Shown here: positions 26,591-36,199 of the stretch, one piece after another
Numbering within the stretch: the first letter of the stretch is position 1
How the letters are laid out: each line of letters starts with the position of its first letter
Source: Methanomassiliicoccales archaeon
GTDB taxonomy: Archaea; Thermoplasmatota; Thermoplasmata; Methanomassiliicoccales; UBA472
Direction of reading: 5' to 3'
DNA: 36,452 nucleotides
Assembly: GCA_038740345.1 (NCBI GenBank)
Contig: JAVYMA010000019.1
Location: forward strand, 1 to 36,452
The notes under the pieces: generated by a model
Seen by the model: the letters and a program-made list of their open reading frames with translations, nothing else
Database searches by the model: none
Told to the model about the DNA's origin: nothing
Program-made: the position numbers and the translations under genes

Positions 26591-28255
26591 TCATGCGGGA
26601 GGTATGATGACGGTCCTCTCGCCTGCGGGCATGAACTCGCGCAGTGCACCACGGCCGAATTCTTTGGTGATGTTCGCGAAGTCGAACGGCAAGTTCTTGT
26701 CCGCGAATGCCACCTTGATCAGTGGGTTGCACGCGAAGGCATCGCCCCGTGCTGCATGAGCCGCTGCAGCTATTCCGCCATACCCGGAAAGGTGACCGAC
26801 GTTCATGGCGTAGTTCGGGTAGTTCGGACCCCTCAGCTCGAATGGTAGGCCCTCGTCGCTCCTGTATGAGAACGAGTTTGCAGCACCGCATTGGTCTTGC
26901 AGGTCATATCCATAGAAGCCCAAGCGACCGAGCCTCTCCTTGTGCTGGAACATGGATAGATACCAGCCATTGACCCCGCAGTCTGCATTACCCGTGGCCA
27001 TAGCGCAAGCGATGCCAGTCGCTGCTGCTGCCACTGTGGCACGCTGTGAGCCACCGAAGTGAGCCTCCATGGCGGCTGGATAGCGCTCATACATCTCCAA
27101 TGCATAGGAGTTTACCTCGGTTCCTAGTTTCTCAATGTTCTCATATGTCGGCTTGAGCTTCGTAAGACCTCCATACTTGTCGTTAATCAGGTCTACTGCC
27201 CAATACGTGTAGTCCTCAAGGATATTGTCAGTATAGGCGGCCGTTGCATATTGAGTGAACCCGACTCCTCCCGACATGTAGGATCCTAGATAGATCTGAT
27301 CATAGATCACTGCACCCAGCGCTACAGCTTCAAGAGCCTGTCTAGCAGGGTCATCAGGATACTTCCTTAGTGACTGCACCATATCCGCCAGATACCCGAA
27401 CGGTATTCCACCTGGCTCATTAGGACCACGGGCACGTCGCGCTGGCATCATTGTACCCATCTCAACTACCGAGGCGTGCTTTGCGGCATAGGCGAAGTCT
27501 GCGATGGCGGCTTCTCCGGCTGCAAGGCGGTAAGAGGTGATGAATGCCATGGAAATCTGCATAGCAGACCACCTTGACATCGTCGCACCGTCGCAAACGC
27601 GCCCTACGATGGTCGGGCAAGCTACCTTCTGCCAGAGCTGGTTACCGATAGCCTCCTTGAGTTGCTTGGCCTGCTCTGCAGGGAACTCCTTGTTGATGTC
27701 AATCCTGAATTGCTTGTCAATCTCATCCATCAACTCATCATTCCCTGAGAAGACCTTTACATAGCAGTCTGCGGTTAGAGCAGGGCTGCACTCTGCCATG
27801 TGCTCCTGAACGACTGCTCCCCCAGGCATTGTGTGGTTAACTGCCTCGAGGTAGCGGTTTATGGTTTCCGGGGTAACCTCTTTGCCCAATCTCTTCTCAA
27901 TCACAGTGTGCGCTGTGTCGAGACCCACGATTACAGTCCTTCGAATGTCATCCCATGCCTGCTGCATTGCGGCATTGTTGATAAAGTGCAAGTCGTCCGC
28001 TTCAGCATAGATGTCAGTATGGGACAACTGATAGGGCATAAGAACACGCTGTCCCAGGGGAACACCGATGTCCTGATTCATCATTACGATGCCACGTTGC
28101 TTAGCTATCTTGTTTGCCTGTTCAACCCATTCTCTTTTCCTCTTAGACTGTTTCCAGCCTCCAAAGGAGTAGTAGCTGGTGTGGACCTCAGTGGGATCCT
28201 CCTTGAATTTCTTCTTCATCGCTTTTAAGAATAGCTTCTCTTTCTCCTTGGCCAT
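26591..28255 (-). CDS. mcrA: Methyl-coenzyme M reductase subunit alpha
   Basis: The alpha subunit of the (abc)2 MCR hexamer, which makes methane from methyl-CoM and coenzyme B at nickel F430. All hallmarks are present in 554 residues. Gln150 (GGAVVQEHM) is the axial nickel ligand, Tyr336 (GVGFTQYA) and Tyr371 line the active site, and the sites usually modified in other methanogens are conserved: His260 (AYAAKHA), Arg274 ([13 protein letters not shown]), Gln404 (GGSQRATV), Gly449 ([13 protein letters not shown], the thioglycine) and Cys456. The thioglycine enzymes YcaO and TfuA are encoded just upstream of this operon. A good AAGGGGG ribosome site precedes the ATG. GC content and codon choice are higher than in most neighbours, as expected of a highly expressed gene. 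Confidence 0.98.
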
Positions 28256-28258
28256 TGC

Positions 28259-29035
28259 TCATACCCCCTTAATGTTGAAGGGTTGGAAGCCGCTCATGGT
28301 CCTCAGCATGTGTATGCGATTAGTAACCAACATGACTTCCTTGTCCTCCCTCATGTCCACACCATCGGCGCGGAACATGGTGGTCCTCTTCTTGAGCTCC
28401 TCCTCCTTCATGGGTTTACCCACAGAAATGGGCTTATCCAATGGGAGAGCGACCTGGTCCTTCACATACTCAACTTCACCCTTCTTGGCATTCCAGCGGT
28501 ATCTTTGCCAGGCATCGAACATCAGGCCATTCTCATCAAGCCTGCAAGCATGCCCATGCACTGTCGCGCCTCGGATACCAGTCCTAGCAGGGTCAAAGGT
28601 CTCATTGTCTATGAGCTCCTTGGCAAGCTTTTCCAGGTCTCTCTCACGCATTTCGATGATTTGCCTACCGGAGAGGGTACCTGTATCGATACCGCGATAC
28701 CGGCTCATGTACATCCAGGCTCGGACATATGGAACGATAGGCGCAAAGTAGACAGAGTCAGTGAATTGAACATACCTGATCCTGTCTCCTTTCTTGGCAC
28801 CTTCAATGGGAGTCACTAGCTGCCTTATTGGGCAGTCAGGCTCTGTCCCTTCATCCAGTGGTGGGTGGATGCTCTTATAGTCTTCACCTGGAGCTCTGTG
28901 ACCAAGTATCTTGACCACGTCATCCATGGCGACGTCTCGGAGCTTCTCCAATTTTACTTTTGGGTCCAGGAACTTTCTCCTGTTCTTAGCAGGAATGGTG
29001 GTTCCAGGATAGAATTGTCTCTCATACTTTGCCAT
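28259..29035 (-). CDS. mcrG: Methyl-coenzyme M reductase subunit gamma
   Basis: The gamma subunit binds around F430 and coenzyme M and completes the MCR active site. The protein begins [20 protein letters not shown], the usual N-terminus of the family. It contains [20 protein letters not shown] and later [19 protein letters not shown], which matches the F430 pocket region. The start is placed at 29035, not at the upstream ATG (29044), because family homology starts with MAKYERQ. The TAATG overlap with mcrD and the GAGGTG ribosome site 8 nt upstream agree. It ends 3 nt before mcrA. Length is 258 residues, standard for McrG. Confidence 0.97.
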
Positions 29036-29460
29036 TATGAACACCTCTTTTTTGCATAATCGGTAACAGTTGGCCTAAATTTTGAATATCTTCCAACCTC
29101 TAGGTCGAATCCGAACGGGAGCAATTCCTCGCAAATAGACTCTATTTCCTTAAGGGCTTCATTAACATGTTCGATATCATCTATTTCAACGAAGATTCGC
29201 CCTACCATGATGCGTAGTTCGGTTTCCTTGCCTTTGATTTTGATCTTCCTTCTCTCGGGATGATTCACTGGGATTCCTGCTGCAGGTCCCTGAGTCACCA
29301 TTTCTGGAAGGCTTTCGCCTTGGCAATTTACTTGCCTAACGTGCTTTACATCGTACAATCGGTTAATTAGTTTCTCAGATGTGGCAGCGGAGAGAAGCCT
29401 TGAAGGCATTATCATGATCTCTGGCAATGGAACGGCCTCAGGGGCTGGAGAACCTTTCAT
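29035..29460 (-). CDS. mcrD: MCR operon protein McrD
   Basis: McrD is a small accessory protein encoded in mcr operons. It can bind MCR and is implicated in assembly or F430 insertion, but it is not part of the final enzyme. The 141-residue sequence shows the family pattern: [20 protein letters not shown] near the N-terminus, [19 protein letters not shown] with a conserved Cys, and a ferredoxin-like C-terminal half with [17 protein letters not shown]. It overlaps the stop of mcrB and the start of mcrG by one base each (TAATG), so these genes are translationally coupled. Confidence 0.95.
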
Positions 29461-30791
29461 TAGGCCACCTCATCCTTTATCTTTTTTGCCTCCTTACCGA
29501 CCACCTTAAAGGGCGCCTTGAATTCTGGAATGTCGCCAAAGACATCTCTAACCAATGAGGATGTGCTCTCTGGTGAGAAGTATTGGGTTCCAGCATCAAG
29601 TGCGCAGCCCGCTGCAATCACAGGAATGACTGTGCCTTTCGCATGCTTTGTCACTACGTGGTTTCCGTGGAATAGCCCAGGACCACCACCACCGTAGATA
29701 GAGTGGCTGAAGAATGACATACCCACTGATGTACCCATGGCGCGACCATAATCCACTCCTGGCAATCCGGTCTCATGTTCAACCAAGTCATTATAGTACA
29801 AAATCGTCGAGGGTACACCTTGTGAAGCCCTAGCAGCACCGCAGTTTACCATTATGGCAGCTAACATGCCAGTTGCCACATAGGCGTTCCAGAGGGGCAT
29901 ATCATTGGTGGTGAACACCTTGTAGCCCGAGGGCAATTTCTCCTTCACCTTAATGACTTTGTCCTCAAGAGCACGGCCTACGAGGCTCTCAACAACTGTA
30001 CCAACGGTCCCAGTCTTCCCATTCTCTTTGACCAAATCGTAGGTTATGTTGTTAGCGTTCAGTCCTTGGTAGGCTAAGGCTAGTAAGTGTTGGCGCTCGA
30101 ATGGTCCAATGGCATCTCCCATTTCGAAAGATGCGGTGTTCTCGAAAATGCTGGCCAACGCAGCAGCCACCATGGCATTCTTTCCTGAGAGCGCGACAAT
30201 ATGGTTAGCCATGATGTTTCTTAGGGCATATCCAGCTCCTTCGTTGTTCTGAGGCACTTCCAGGATTGATTTCAAGTTTGAGCCCAGGAAGTTCAGAGTC
30301 TGAGGATATCTTCCCCAAACTGCTGCCTTAACCATGTTGGCTTTATGCATTGGTACCTCGTACATATCGATGATCGCCTGAGTCAATGCCGCTGCAGCTG
30401 CAGTGAATCCTGTTGTATATTCGACTCCTGCGTCCAACCTTATCGTTGGAACCATGACGATCATTCTCTTTCCTTCCATTATCACTCTCACTTCTGTGTC
30501 ATCGTCCTTGGAAACCTTCAGGATGTCTTTGACCGCTTTGGCCAACTTTTCGGCATCCTTAACCACCGGGGCATCGATTTCCTTGCCTTTGATATAACCG
30601 CCACCAACCCTACCGGTCTTGAGACTCTTCTCAATCCCAGTCATATCGACGGCAATCGTCCTCTTGGCAAGGTTCCCGATGCGCATGATGGCTGGATTTC
30701 TCAAAGGACTTATCGCTTCCAAGGGCAACTCTTTCTCTATGAGTTTACCCCTGTCATCGTACAAGTCTATCTTGTCCTTGTATTTCGCCAT
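29460..30791 (-). CDS. mcrB: Methyl-coenzyme M reductase subunit beta
   Basis: The beta subunit provides part of the channel that binds coenzyme B. The sequence starts [20 protein letters not shown], contains [16 protein letters not shown], and has the characteristic [20 protein letters not shown] and [18 protein letters not shown] stretches. In the latter the His/Tyr residues contact CoB and CoM. Length is 443 residues, normal for the family. A GGAGG ribosome site lies 6 nt before the ATG. It is the first gene of the operon and has a long, structured leader (see nearby features). Base composition is GC-richer than in flanking regions. Confidence 0.98.
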
Positions 30792-31123: not shown

Positions 31124-31804
31124 TTATTTATTGTATCTTCTATGATTATTATTGACATTCTTTCTTACGCTCTTTAAAGCATTAATCACATCTATAGCGT
31201 CTTTTTCTTTCAAATCTACATAATTTTGATTAAACATTGTTTTCAACCTGTGAACAGTCTTCTCATCGAGAATTTTCTTCGCGTATTGAAACATTGTCTC
31301 TTTGTTTCTCTTTGGATAATAAACATCTTTTAATTTTTCAATTATTTTATTTTTTTGAGACCAGTTAAGAATATTTTTTTCAACTGCCAACTCGAGATTA
31401 TATCTTAAATTTACCAATGGCTCAGACAAGGGTTCATAAGTTTCGGGATCGAAAATTAGAGCTACTTCGTCATCTCCTTCTAACTCCCTTTGAACATACA
31501 TTTGATATATTTTTCCTATACCTATCATTCCAAAAGACTTTAGCTCATACGCACGAAGTGCACCCATACTTGAACCGCCAAAAATTTTTACTCCCGCCCG
31601 AATTTTATCAACTATTTCTCTATGTCCTACTGCAGCTTCCTCAAAAAATACGCCATCTATTATTCCAATCAATTTTACATTTGAATCTAAATTTGGAAGA
31701 TCTCCCCTTTTTACGGGGGGTAAGATATTAGTTTCAGTTCCTAGTAATTTCATCGCCATCTCACGTTTTAAGCTTGGCCCTATGAATACAACTGACTCAA
31801 ACAT
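31124..31804 (-). CDS. tfuA: TfuA-like protein (McrA thioamidation partner)
   Basis: TfuA proteins work with YcaO to install thioamides, probably by delivering sulfide or recruiting the substrate. In methanogens the pair makes the thioglycine of McrA. The 226-residue sequence shows SVVFIGPSL at the start, IDGVFFEEAAVGHREIVDKI, and the family signature IFGGSSMGALRAYEL, followed by GIGKIYQMYVQRELEGDDEVA. The C-terminus is Lys/Asn-rich and ends HRRYNK. The ATG directly abuts the ycaO stop (TGAATG), so translation is coupled. The gene ends 333 nt before the mcrB start, making this one of the clearer cases in which the modifier lies next to its substrate's operon. Confidence 0.93.
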   Translation of the reverse strand: MFESVVFIGPSLKREMAMKLLGTETNILPPVKRGDLPNLDSNVKLIGIIDGVFFEEAAVGHREIVDKIRAGVKIFGGSSMGALRAYELKSFGMIGIGKIYQMYVQRELEGDDEVALIFDPETYEPLSEPLVNLRYNLELAVEKNILNWSQKNKIIEKLKDVYYPKRNKETMFQYAKKILDEKTVHRLKTMFNQNYVDLKEKDAIDVINALKSVRKNVNNNHRRYNK

Positions 31805-33004
31805 TCAGCCCCCTCTTGAACGATTTCCCATTCTTTCCTCATCCATGGCATATACTTCCATTCCTGGAATTATTACTCTAACTACAGGTACACCTAACTC
31901 TTTTCTAGTCAAATTTACAGCAATCAACCGTTTAAATCCTCGGGATTTGAGTATATCAATGATTACCATTAAATCTTCAAATAAGTCAGGCGTATCCAAA
32001 TTATTATAGGATGATAATGGCTTAATCCTAGTTGAACTCGAAAACCACATTGCGTTTAAACGTTTCATTTTTTCATATCCTAAAGATCTAGAGCTCGAAG
32101 CACGAACAGTATCCTCTCTGGCACCGTGAATTTGTGTGACTCTGCTCTGAGCTACTTCAGTCAACGCGCGGATTAGTGCGATTCTAGGATTAAGATGAGT
32201 ACCTATACCCAGACATAGCAGAGCTGCATCTTTCATCCGAACATCATCAGCAGCAGCTGCAAATGTAGGTATACCTAAATCACTTGTTAGGTCCTTTAAA
32301 TAAATATCTATTTCTTGCGATATAAATTTCTCGAGAATAGAACGAATTAATTTGTCATCATGAGGTTGTTCAATATCCCCCCGCAATTGACGCCTCATCT
32401 CACATATGGACCAAGCATCTCTTTCTATGACCTCACATGCTCCATGAACTATTGCCTCTTCCAAAGTATTTCCAGAGGCTAAGCCATTTGTATTTGTCCG
32501 GAAAAGTGGCATATCTAATTTAGAATTATAAGGGTGAAATACAGCGCATGCTGGAACATATATTGGTTCTTTTTCTTGAAGGTCATAACCTTTCACCCAA
32601 GCGATATTTTGATAAAATAAATGAGGAATTGTGCGCAAAGGTAGAATTAGGTCTCTTGGATCAACACAATTATGTGATGAAAGCATATCTTCAAGATTTT
32701 TTCTTACTATTTCATCACCTCTAACTTCTCCACTATATCTTTCCAAAGCTTCCATTATCGCCGAAACCTTAGCCTGAATTTTTGATGCACCTTTGCCATT
32801 ATAAACGCTAATAGCTCCCGATTGAGCATCTGGACGAATACTAGAATATACTGGGATTCCAACTCTATCTAAACCTGTGATATCAGCGACTCGAGTTACG
32901 CCTGCTATTGGGCATAGAGGCTCAATTCTTTTTAAAGTGGTCAAAGGATCCACTGTGCGGTGGCCATCTTCAGTGTAGAGTTTAGGAGCTGGGCCCAGAA
33001 TCAT
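31805..33004 (-). CDS. ycaO: YcaO-type ATP-dependent thioamide synthase
   Basis: YcaO enzymes activate a backbone amide with ATP; with TfuA they convert McrA Gly449 to thioglycine. The 399-residue protein has the family ATP/Mg elements KVSAIMEALERYSGE (near residue 80), EEAIVHGACEVIERDAWS (near 185) and RALTEVAQSRVTQIHG (near 280). The N-terminus has GVTRVADITGLDRVGIPVY. The C-terminus is Arg-rich (ERMGNRSRGG), unlike the Pro-rich tail of the azoline-forming YcaOs. A TATAAAA box at about 33028-33036 predicts a leaderless transcript. An Lrp/AsnC gene lies 42 nt upstream on the same strand, but the promoter argues for separate transcription. Confidence 0.94.
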   Translation of the reverse strand: MILGPAPKLYTEDGHRTVDPLTTLKRIEPLCPIAGVTRVADITGLDRVGIPVYSSIRPDAQSGAISVYNGKGASKIQAKVSAIMEALERYSGEVRGDEIVRKNLEDMLSSHNCVDPRDLILPLRTIPHLFYQNIAWVKGYDLQEKEPIYVPACAVFHPYNSKLDMPLFRTNTNGLASGNTLEEAIVHGACEVIERDAWSICEMRRQLRGDIEQPHDDKLIRSILEKFISQEIDIYLKDLTSDLGIPTFAAAADDVRMKDAALLCLGIGTHLNPRIALIRALTEVAQSRVTQIHGAREDTVRASSSRSLGYEKMKRLNAMWFSSSTRIKPLSSYNNLDTPDLFEDLMVIIDILKSRGFKRLIAVNLTRKELGVPVVRVIIPGMEVYAMDEERMGNRSRGG

Positions 33005-33670: not shown

Positions 33671-34375
33671 TTAGGATTTCTGTCTTGATTTGGGAATCGG
33701 TCCTGCTGAGAATTGCTTTAACGCTTTAGCGACTTCGGTGAGTCTTTGTCTCGGAATTCCAACCAACATTTCTTCAGGTTTGATATCCGTTGTTTTTCGA
33801 CAGCCAAAGCAGCCCAACGATATGTTAATATTGCCTGTTTTAATTGGTACAACGGTTGAATCTGCGCATGTTGCTTGCACAGAAGCCATCTCAACTGTGA
33901 TCCTTCCTCCCATACTAAACGTCGAAGCGGCAGGAACTAACCAGAATATCTGCTCAGGAAGCCCGACAACGACTACAACATCCGGGTTTAGGGTGGCTTG
34001 GCTTAAGGGAGCGAGCGCTGTCGCAGCATTACTTAAAGGTTCAAGCTGAGGTCTAATTGAAATAGTCTTCGCAGCTGCTTCTGGCGTCTCATACATACCC
34101 ATATTATGATGAAACTCTCCCGCTTTGACTTTTTCAGGTAACGGGACTATACCCAATGCACTTCCTCCCACGGGACAAGCCTGTTTATCAGCCGGAACAG
34201 TTAATTTCTCGCCTTTTCTTGCCCTCATGATTGCTTGACAATGTCTAATAGGGGTTTCGGGAATTTTATAACCCTCTGGCAACTGCTGACCTTTTTTAAT
34301 CAATGTAATCGCGACTGGTTCTGTACTCAATCCTAAAGACTCCACCAACAATTTCGACAATTCCTTGCAATCCAT
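33671..34375 (-). CDS. DUF169-family protein
   Basis: The 234-residue protein matches DUF169. It has LGLSTEPVAITLIKKGQQLP, RHCQAIMRARKGEKLTV, DKQACPVGGSALGI, VQATCADSTVV and a NISLGCFGCRKTTDI motif near 190. Several cysteines (about 45, 67, 169, 190 and 193) are conserved in the family and could bind a metal or cofactor. DUF169 proteins are common in methanogens and other anaerobes but their biochemical role is undefined. A strong GGAGGT ribosome site precedes the ATG. The gene is divergent from the MtrA-MtrH pair, with about 160 nt between them, so shared regulation is possible. Confidence 0.9.
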   Translation of the reverse strand: MDCKELSKLLVESLGLSTEPVAITLIKKGQQLPEGYKIPETPIRHCQAIMRARKGEKLTVPADKQACPVGGSALGIVPLPEKVKAGEFHHNMGMYETPEAAAKTISIRPQLEPLSNAATALAPLSQATLNPDVVVVVGLPEQIFWLVPAASTFSMGGRITVEMASVQATCADSTVVPIKTGNINISLGCFGCRKTTDIKPEEMLVGIPRQRLTEVAKALKQFSAGPIPKSRQKS

Positions 34376-34496: not shown

Positions 34497-34505
34497 CTAT
34501 AAATA
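34497..34505 (+). promoter_or_regulatory. TATA box for the mtrA-mtrH pair
   Basis: CTATAAATA is a good archaeal TATA element about 32-38 nt upstream of the ATG at 34536, predicting a transcript with a leader of only around 10 nt. Confidence 0.5.
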
Positions 34506-34535: not shown

Positions 34536-35306
34536 ATGAAAAGCGAACCTAGATGGCCAGTCATACCTGGAGAATATGTCATAGGGGCAAAATCGAGTCC
34601 AATTGCTATTTTAATCATAGGCCGGGGTTTTGTAGACCTACCTCCTGATAATTTTGCCATTATTGGTTCATTAAAAACTGAAAATATTGGTTTGGAAATG
34701 GTTATAGCCAATATTGTTAGTAATCCAAGAATTCGTTTTCTCATTATTTGTGGTAAAGAAGAATTTGGTCATTTTCCAGCGGATGCTATTATGAAATTAT
34801 GGAAAAATGGAATAGACAAAAATAAAAGAATTAAAGAAGCCCGCTCAGCAATTCCTTATTTATGTAATATTAACGAAGAAGTCATTCAAAGATTTAGGAA
34901 ACAAGTTCAAATCATCGATTTAGTATACCCAAAAGATGCTGATGAAATAATTGCGTACGATCCTATATATATTTTTGAGAATGAAAGGAAAGAAGAATTG
35001 TTAGAAAAAATAAAAAAGTGCAAAGATTCTGATCCAGGAATATTTCCAGCAGAACCAATTCTTATCGATAATGAGATATTTTGTATGGATACACATAAAA
35101 TAATAAGAACAATTGACCGATTGGCTTTGGATTTTACGGATCAAATGCTTAGGTTGCCAAGTGAAAAATTATCTACAGATGCATCACTGATAGCCATTTC
35201 TGAAAATCCATCGGTCATCCTTGACCCTGTAGATGGAATTGTAGTAGAAGTCCCGTCTATAAATTTTATTTATAAACTTAAATTATATTATCGAGGTGAG
35301 TGCTAA
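34536..35306 (+). CDS. mtrA: Soluble MtrA-like corrinoid protein
   Basis: MtrA carries the corrinoid of the methyl-H4MPT:coenzyme M methyltransferase. This protein has the MtrA core: WPVIPGEYVIGAKSSP, the IIGSLKTENIGLEMVIANIVSN block, FGHFPADAIMKLWKNGID and a DPGIFPAEPILID element. His79 in FGHF corresponds to the histidine that ligates cobalt. It lacks the C-terminal membrane helix of canonical MtrA; instead about 75 extra soluble residues follow (residues 180-256). No mtrB, C, D, E, F or G genes are nearby, so this is not a standard membrane-bound Na+-pumping complex. With the adjacent MtrH it probably forms a cytoplasmic methyltransferase. The stop overlaps the mtrH start by one base. Confidence 0.88.
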   Translation: MKSEPRWPVIPGEYVIGAKSSPIAILIIGRGFVDLPPDNFAIIGSLKTENIGLEMVIANIVSNPRIRFLIICGKEEFGHFPADAIMKLWKNGIDKNKRIKEARSAIPYLCNINEEVIQRFRKQVQIIDLVYPKDADEIIAYDPIYIFENERKEELLEKIKKCKDSDPGIFPAEPILIDNEIFCMDTHKIIRTIDRLALDFTDQMLRLPSEKLSTDASLIAISENPSVILDPVDGIVVEVPSINFIYKLKLYYRGEC

Positions 35307-36199
35307 TGATTAAATTTTTGAATAATCAGACCACGTTTAACATTGGAAGAGTAAAATTTGGTGGCCAACCCGGAAAGCGAAGAGTTGTTTTAATTGGTTC
35401 CATATTTTATCCAAGACATAGTATCGTTTTAGATAGAATTAATGGAATTGTAAAACCTGGTTCTGTGGAGATGCTGCTAGAACAGAGTGAAAGAGCGTCT
35501 TTAGAAACAGGATGTCCATATGCCATAATGATTTATGGTGAAACAAAAAAAGCAATTAGGAATTATTTAGAAATAATATCAGACTTATTTTCAGGGCCAA
35601 TTTTTATCGATTCTCCAAGTGCGGAAGTACGTATAGCTGGAATAAACTGGGCAAAAGAAGCTGGCATTGAAGATAGAATAGTGTACAACACAATAAATGC
35701 AGGGATTAAACCAGAAGAATGGGAGGCTTTGGAAAACAATAATATTCAAAATGCTGTTATATTGGCTTTTAATCCTGGCGATCTTCAAAGCAAAGGAAAA
35801 ATATATTTATTAGAAAATGGAAGTAACTTTTTACCTGAAGGATTAATTGAATTAGCAAAGAAACACGGAATAACAAGACCACTACTTGATATGGCAGTAA
35901 TGTCATATGAACAGGGTGCAGGTCATTCAATACGTGCAATAATGATTGCAAAAGCTAAATGGGGTTTTCCAACCGGATGTGCCATACATAACGCTGTTGA
36001 GTCTTATCCCCTTTTAACTAAAATTAAAAATGAAGATAAAAAAATTTTCAATTTTGTCGATGTAGCTGCGACGGTTATACCCATCATGACTGGAGCCGAT
36101 TTCTTAATTTATGGCCCCATTGAGTATGCACGTCGCATGATGTACGCTGCTACATTCGCAGATGCTCTTTTAGAGCAATCGGCAAGCGAAATATGGTGA
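35306..36199 (+). CDS. mtrH: MtrH-like methyltransferase
   Basis: MtrH transfers a methyl group between a pterin (or another donor) and the corrinoid protein. The protein shows VKFGGQPGKRRVVLIGSIFY, PIFIDSPSAEVRIAGINWA, the LAFNPGD element and DMAVMSYEQGAGHSIRAIMIAKAKWGFPTGCAIHN, close to the canonical MtrH TIM-barrel pattern. The start is set at the ATG at 35306, which has a GAGGTGA ribosome site 6 nt upstream and overlaps the mtrA stop as TAATG; a GTG two codons upstream (35300) is the alternative. Length (297 aa) is normal. Its partner is the soluble MtrA. In organisms lacking the rest of Mtr, the real methyl donor may not be methyl-H4MPT; the substrate is unknown. Confidence 0.9.
   Translation: MIKFLNNQTTFNIGRVKFGGQPGKRRVVLIGSIFYPRHSIVLDRINGIVKPGSVEMLLEQSERASLETGCPYAIMIYGETKKAIRNYLEIISDLFSGPIFIDSPSAEVRIAGINWAKEAGIEDRIVYNTINAGIKPEEWEALENNNIQNAVILAFNPGDLQSKGKIYLLENGSNFLPEGLIELAKKHGITRPLLDMAVMSYEQGAGHSIRAIMIAKAKWGFPTGCAIHNAVESYPLLTKIKNEDKKIFNFVDVAATVIPIMTGADFLIYGPIEYARRMMYAATFADALLEQSASEIW

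Follow-up and report, generated by a model that had tools for sequence, protein, structure and literature searches.

What does a pair of Mtr methyltransferase subunits do in a methanogen of the methyl-reducing type, which generally lacks the Mtr complex? The question is raised by two adjacent genes, mtrA and mtrH, in the genome of a Methanomassiliicoccales archaeon (1.79 Mb, 47 contigs, 99% complete). The window analysed here is the whole of contig C19 (JAVYMA010000019.1; 36,452 nucleotides); mtrH lies near its end, and beyond it, on the opposite strand, comes a trpG-like fragment. A first-pass annotation had described a free-standing, soluble pair that could move methyl groups between an unknown donor, a corrinoid and a pterin. 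The soluble pair as such is already published for the order. Speth and Orphan (2018) reported from MALP, a 'Lake Pavin' Methanomassiliicoccales, soluble mtrAH genes unaccompanied by mtrB-G, an MtrA with an unusual C-terminal extension and a complete C1-H4F pathway, and proposed a methyl-H4F:CoM methyltransferase role (PMC6147122). A 2024 survey of 243 genomes recorded mtrA and mtrH for the majority of the environmental clade (PMC10804542). The locus studied here comes from a different species of the order, shares the two genes, the extension and the C1-H4F pathway with MALP, and is a better-documented example. What is new is the RamA/MtaA (and mcr) neighbourhood of the pair in relatives, the association of MtrH with MetF, and the restriction of the extension to the order within the sampled Thermoplasmatota; neither the mcr/RamA/MtaA neighbourhood nor the MetF association was found in the MALP text (PMC6147122).

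Table 1. Features of the mtrAH region (positions in the window)
Feature	Position	Strand	Evidence
mcrBDGA (methyl-CoM reductase) cluster, conserved neighbour of mtrAH	26591..30791	-	
TfuA and YcaO (McrA thioamidation), conserved neighbours	31124..33004	-	
DUF169 protein, encoded divergently from mtrA and lying between it and the mcr region; conserved neighbour	33671..34375	-	
CTATAAATA, putative TATA-box-like element, 31 bases 5' of the mtrA ATG	34497..34505	+	sequence reading
mtrA-like gene, soluble corrinoid protein, 256 aa	34536..35306	+	PF04208, 5e-47; AlphaFold model; conserved residues
His79 codon, predicted cobalt ligand	34770..34772	+	alignment with 5laa; invariant in 35 homologues
MtrA C-terminal extension, residues 176-256, replacing linker and membrane anchor	35061..35303	+	conserved in the order
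GAGGTGA, likely mtrH ribosome binding site within mtrA	35293..35299	+	read from sequence
mtrH, predicted methyl-pterin:corrinoid methyltransferase, 297 aa from ATG	35306..36199	+	PF02007, 2.4e-82; pterin-contact residues; 9qtp match

The stop codon of mtrA (TAA, 35304-35306) shares one base with the ATG at 35306, and a GAGGTGA motif precedes it. This arrangement makes the translational coupling already proposed at first pass likely, and suggests that MtrH probably starts at this ATG rather than at the alternative GTG at 35300, which would give a protein of 299 aa. The G+C content of mtrA and mtrH (34536-36199) is 33-36%, compared with 53% for mcrA (26594-28255) and a window mean of 40%.

Profile, fold and cobalt-binding residues (the His ligand H79 and its partner E49) place the product of the first gene in the MtrA corrinoid protein family. 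The Pfam match covers residues 4-140, and the AlphaFold model (mean pLDDT 87.9, pTM 0.86) matches the solved MtrA structures 5laa and 5l8x with E values of about 1e-16. In the solved structure, cobalamin is held by the KTEN motif with Glu49, by Asn59 and His79, and by the AIP meander (PMC4915002). All of these are present here (K47 T48 E49 N50, N59, H79 and the AIP motif), as is G52, and the protein is predicted to bind a cobamide. The retention of His79 noted in the first-pass annotation holds on alignment with solved MtrA and across homologues. So does the loss of the membrane anchor: no transmembrane helix was found in MtrA, the highest hydropathy mean over 19 residues being 1.49 for the full protein and 1.43 for the extension.

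The extension itself comprises about 80 residues, close to the 75 or so first claimed. It is conserved across Methanomassiliicoccales, and three of its residues, L205, L212 and G254 in MtrA numbering, are invariant. Neither sequence nor fold searches returned a Pfam or PDB relative for it, and modelled alone it reaches a pTM of 0.52. It was not detected in the MtrA loci read from Thermoplasmatota outside the order, where MtrA likewise adjoins MtrH but carries a different, short tail at its end. As far as the sampled Thermoplasmatota sequences go, the extension is found only in Methanomassiliicoccales.

MtrH is full length, as had been proposed, since the match to Pfam MtrH spans residues 9-299. 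It scores 270.8 bits against TIGR01114, just below the cut-off of 271.4, and 197 bits against the MtgA model, whose cut-off is 550; the match to MtrH of M. mazei (9qtp) has an E value of 8.5e-59. The four residues that contact the pterin in M. marburgensis MtrH, D102, N128, D195 and N229 (PMC10998594), are all present and keep the same numbers when counted from ATG 35306. Together with the full-length profile, they establish membership of the MtrH family; they do not distinguish H4F from H4MPT. In a phylogenetic tree, the MtrH proteins of the order fall on one side of a 100/100 branch, apart from MtrH of sister Thermoplasmatota, M. mazei MtrH, 8z9u and MtgA, a topology that includes three reference sequences only and does not decide pterin specificity. 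Pyrrolysine in MtrH was considered and rejected: in those '1 TAG' loci that were read on the correct strand, the TAG terminates the protein at its C-terminus. A second type of MtrA, in which RSAN replaces KTEN (Glu49 to Ala, His kept), was seen at L055:3556-4329, L063:8637-9398, L064:8213-9004 and L067:5602-6375; at L055 it is convergent to an MtrH without three of the four pterin residues.

Whole-genome profile searches detected a single MtrA and a single MtrH. MtrE and Mch, the latter a marker of the H4MPT branch, were found neither in this genome nor in any other of the order (0/147 each), although the models used do match in both M. jannaschii and M. acetivorans. The absence of the Mtr complex is judged here by MtrE, and that of the H4MPT branch by Mch. 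These results support the initial picture of a methyl-reducing methanogen without the Mtr complex, in which methyl groups move between a corrinoid and a pterin by way of the pair. That picture would have been undermined by further mtr subunits elsewhere in the genome; MtrE, the one looked for, is absent. As to the pterin, for which the same annotation had pointed to H4MPT or folate genes, the methyl-H4F genes are present and Mch is not: contig C6 carries FolD, Fhs and the methylene-H4F reductase MetF, together with an AcsE-like methyl-H4F methyltransferase, AcsV, CdhE, CdhD and CdhC. The acs/cdh cluster also includes a MesB-like protein (L082:11278-12363, G000:C6), which has no Pfam or NCBIfam match and was recognised by eye from its HxC...C pattern.

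The term 'free-standing' fits the operon. It does not fit the wider context: families f1 and f3 keep a conserved gene neighbourhood around the pair, next to mcr. Many loci of these two families have the order mcrBDGA, TfuA, YcaO, AsnC, DUF169, mtrA, mtrH, followed, often on the opposite strand, by an MBL-fold protein, RamA, one or two UroD-type proteins, a hydantoinase-like protein and sometimes an MtaC-like corrinoid protein. Among the 34 loci with a called mtrH, many of them cut by contig ends, the corrinoid activase RamA is present in 18, the CoM methylase MtaA in 16 (both identified by NCBIfam), DUF169 in 15 and McrB in 14. The mtrH loci bearing RamA or MtaA all belong to families f1-f3, two of which also adjoin the mcr operon. 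In f4 and f6 neither lies beside the pair; the context there is a SAM-dependent methyltransferase and, in f6, also a CobW-like GTPase (both at L060, L062, L065, L066 and L068). In the genome studied here, the assembly separates mtrAH (C19) from RamA and MtaA, which are found together on contig C25 with a corrinoid protein, an MBL protein, in whose gene the contig ends, and UroD2, a divergent UroD-type protein (L079:8043-9131 = G000:C25; another at L058:11075-12112). This RamA is 86% identical to that of genome G133. The MtaA carries the HxC...C motif and is a candidate CoM methyltransferase for MtrA.

The presence of Fhs, FolD and MetF, the absence of Mch, and the occurrence of MtaA and RamA beside the pair in relatives narrow the 'unknown donor' to two likely partners, H4F and, via MtaA, CoM. 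These data, the sequence features and catalytic residues of both proteins, the absence of MtrE and the association with MetF described below form the basis on which we consider it probable that the pair is a soluble, non-pumping bridge: CH3-H4F ↔ MtrH ↔ MtrA ↔ MtaA ↔ CoM. MtrH would bind 5-methyl-H4F and exchange its methyl group with the cobamide on MtrA, ligated by His79 and held reduced by RamA, while MtaA would swap the methyl group between MtrA and coenzyme M. The bridge would thereby feed or draw on methyl-CoM, the substrate of Mcr, encoded nearby. In the absence of a pump, transfer from CH3-H4F to CoM should be the downhill direction; the H4MPT counterpart of the reaction yields about -30 kJ/mol. 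The reverse may be possible if methyl-CoM is kept high, with oxidation of the methyl group to formate and ATP made at Fhs. Three parts of this scheme we infer: that the pterin is H4F, that MtaA is the partner on the CoM side, and the direction. Several observations argue against it: RamA and MtaA are not adjacent to mtrAH in this genome, f4 and f6 lack both beside the pair, and G014 (97% complete), whose pair is divergent, has no MetF. In addition, formate reduced by way of the bridge would consume ATP at Fhs, with no energy conserved in the methyl-transfer step.

The distribution of the pair bears on its role. Among 147 genomes of the order, 42 encode MtrH and 41 encode MtrA, with the two genes side by side in nearly every case; most of the order lacks the pair. 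Fhs is nearly universal (131/147). In genomes at least 90% complete, MetF accompanies MtrH in 20 of 22 cases, versus 12 of 54 genomes without MtrH (Fisher 3e-8, a value inflated and confounded by shared ancestry). Counted by genus, the proportions are 14/16 and 6/14 (p 0.019), and within f6 genera alone the association is not significant (p 0.51). MtrH is also associated with CdhC, more weakly than with MetF. The latter association, together with the AcsE-like protein, AcsV and CdhC/D/E on contig C6 and a protein on contig C1 that is MtaB-like by resemblance only, would suit a purely assimilatory role, in which methanol-derived methyl groups pass from CoM or a corrinoid to H4F for acetyl-CoA synthesis via the AcsE-like protein and CODH/ACS. 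Such a role would make MetF redundant, yet genomes with MtrH nearly always keep it, and the genera that have CdhC without MetF (g23, g28 and g30) never carry MtrH. Moreover, the AcsE-like protein should already link methyl-H4F to CoFeSP, so that MtrAH is unneeded for that step. This pattern agrees better with a serial action of MetF and MtrH than with MtrAH substituting for MetF in assimilation, and we regard assimilation alone as unlikely.

Alternatively, the methyl group might come from a dedicated donor that is neither methyl-H4F nor CoM, such as a methoxy compound or a UroD2 substrate, and pass by demethylation to MtrA and then to a pterin. UroD2 is found at 12 of the 34 mtrAH loci and directly 5' of mtrA in G023, but it is inconstant: in f3, f4 and f6 it is missing next to the pair. 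Nor was any known family of substrate-specific methyltransferases seen next to mtrAH; this reading is decidedly unlikely. For MesA, a core methionine synthase, MtrA is the predicted methyl donor (PMC7857596). That MtrA plays such a part here is highly improbable, because the order is reported to have MesB only, a predicted user of CoFeSP (PMC7857596), a MesB-like protein lies inside the acs/cdh cluster of this very genome, the pair is missing from most of the order, and the genome has no PF01717 match, the last being weak evidence since this model misses some Mes families and gives no match in M. acetivorans, which has MesC.

The methyl-H4F:CoM bridge can be set against three known systems. 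The membrane complex MtrABCDEFGH of CO2-reducing methanogens shares the B12 domain of MtrA and the catalytic residues of MtrH; unlike it, the system described here has no MtrE, no MtrA anchor and a different C-terminal domain, and no Na+ pumping is expected. Non-methanogenic archaea (sister Thermoplasmatota; Thorarchaeia, PMC9635834) likewise carry mtrA followed by mtrH without the complex, but in the sister Thermoplasmatota loci read the MtrA tail is short and different and MtrH forms a separate group. MtgA of Desulfitobacterium hafniense, a methyl-corrinoid:H4F methyltransferase (6sj8), shares the MtrH superfamily, the TIM barrel and the exchange between corrinoid and pterin, whereas its partner is an MtgC-type corrinoid protein.

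A role of the extension in docking to MtaA is a guess. It allows speculation that the extension is a docking domain for the methyl handover from MtrA to MtaA, and that in this order a folate branch of bacterial type, replacing the Na+-pumping Mtr complex, supplies or consumes methyl-CoM, which would permit formate- or acetate-linked methanogenesis without tetrahydromethanopterin. This full scenario appears rather unlikely to us.

The conserved neighbourhood in relatives offers a candidate CoM methyltransferase and a candidate activase, which makes the 2018 hypothesis testable with four purified proteins. If the bridge works, these methanogens would not be limited to H2-dependent methyl reduction: carbon could flow between formate or acetate and methane via tetrahydrofolate, which would alter the substrates predicted for a widespread environmental group.
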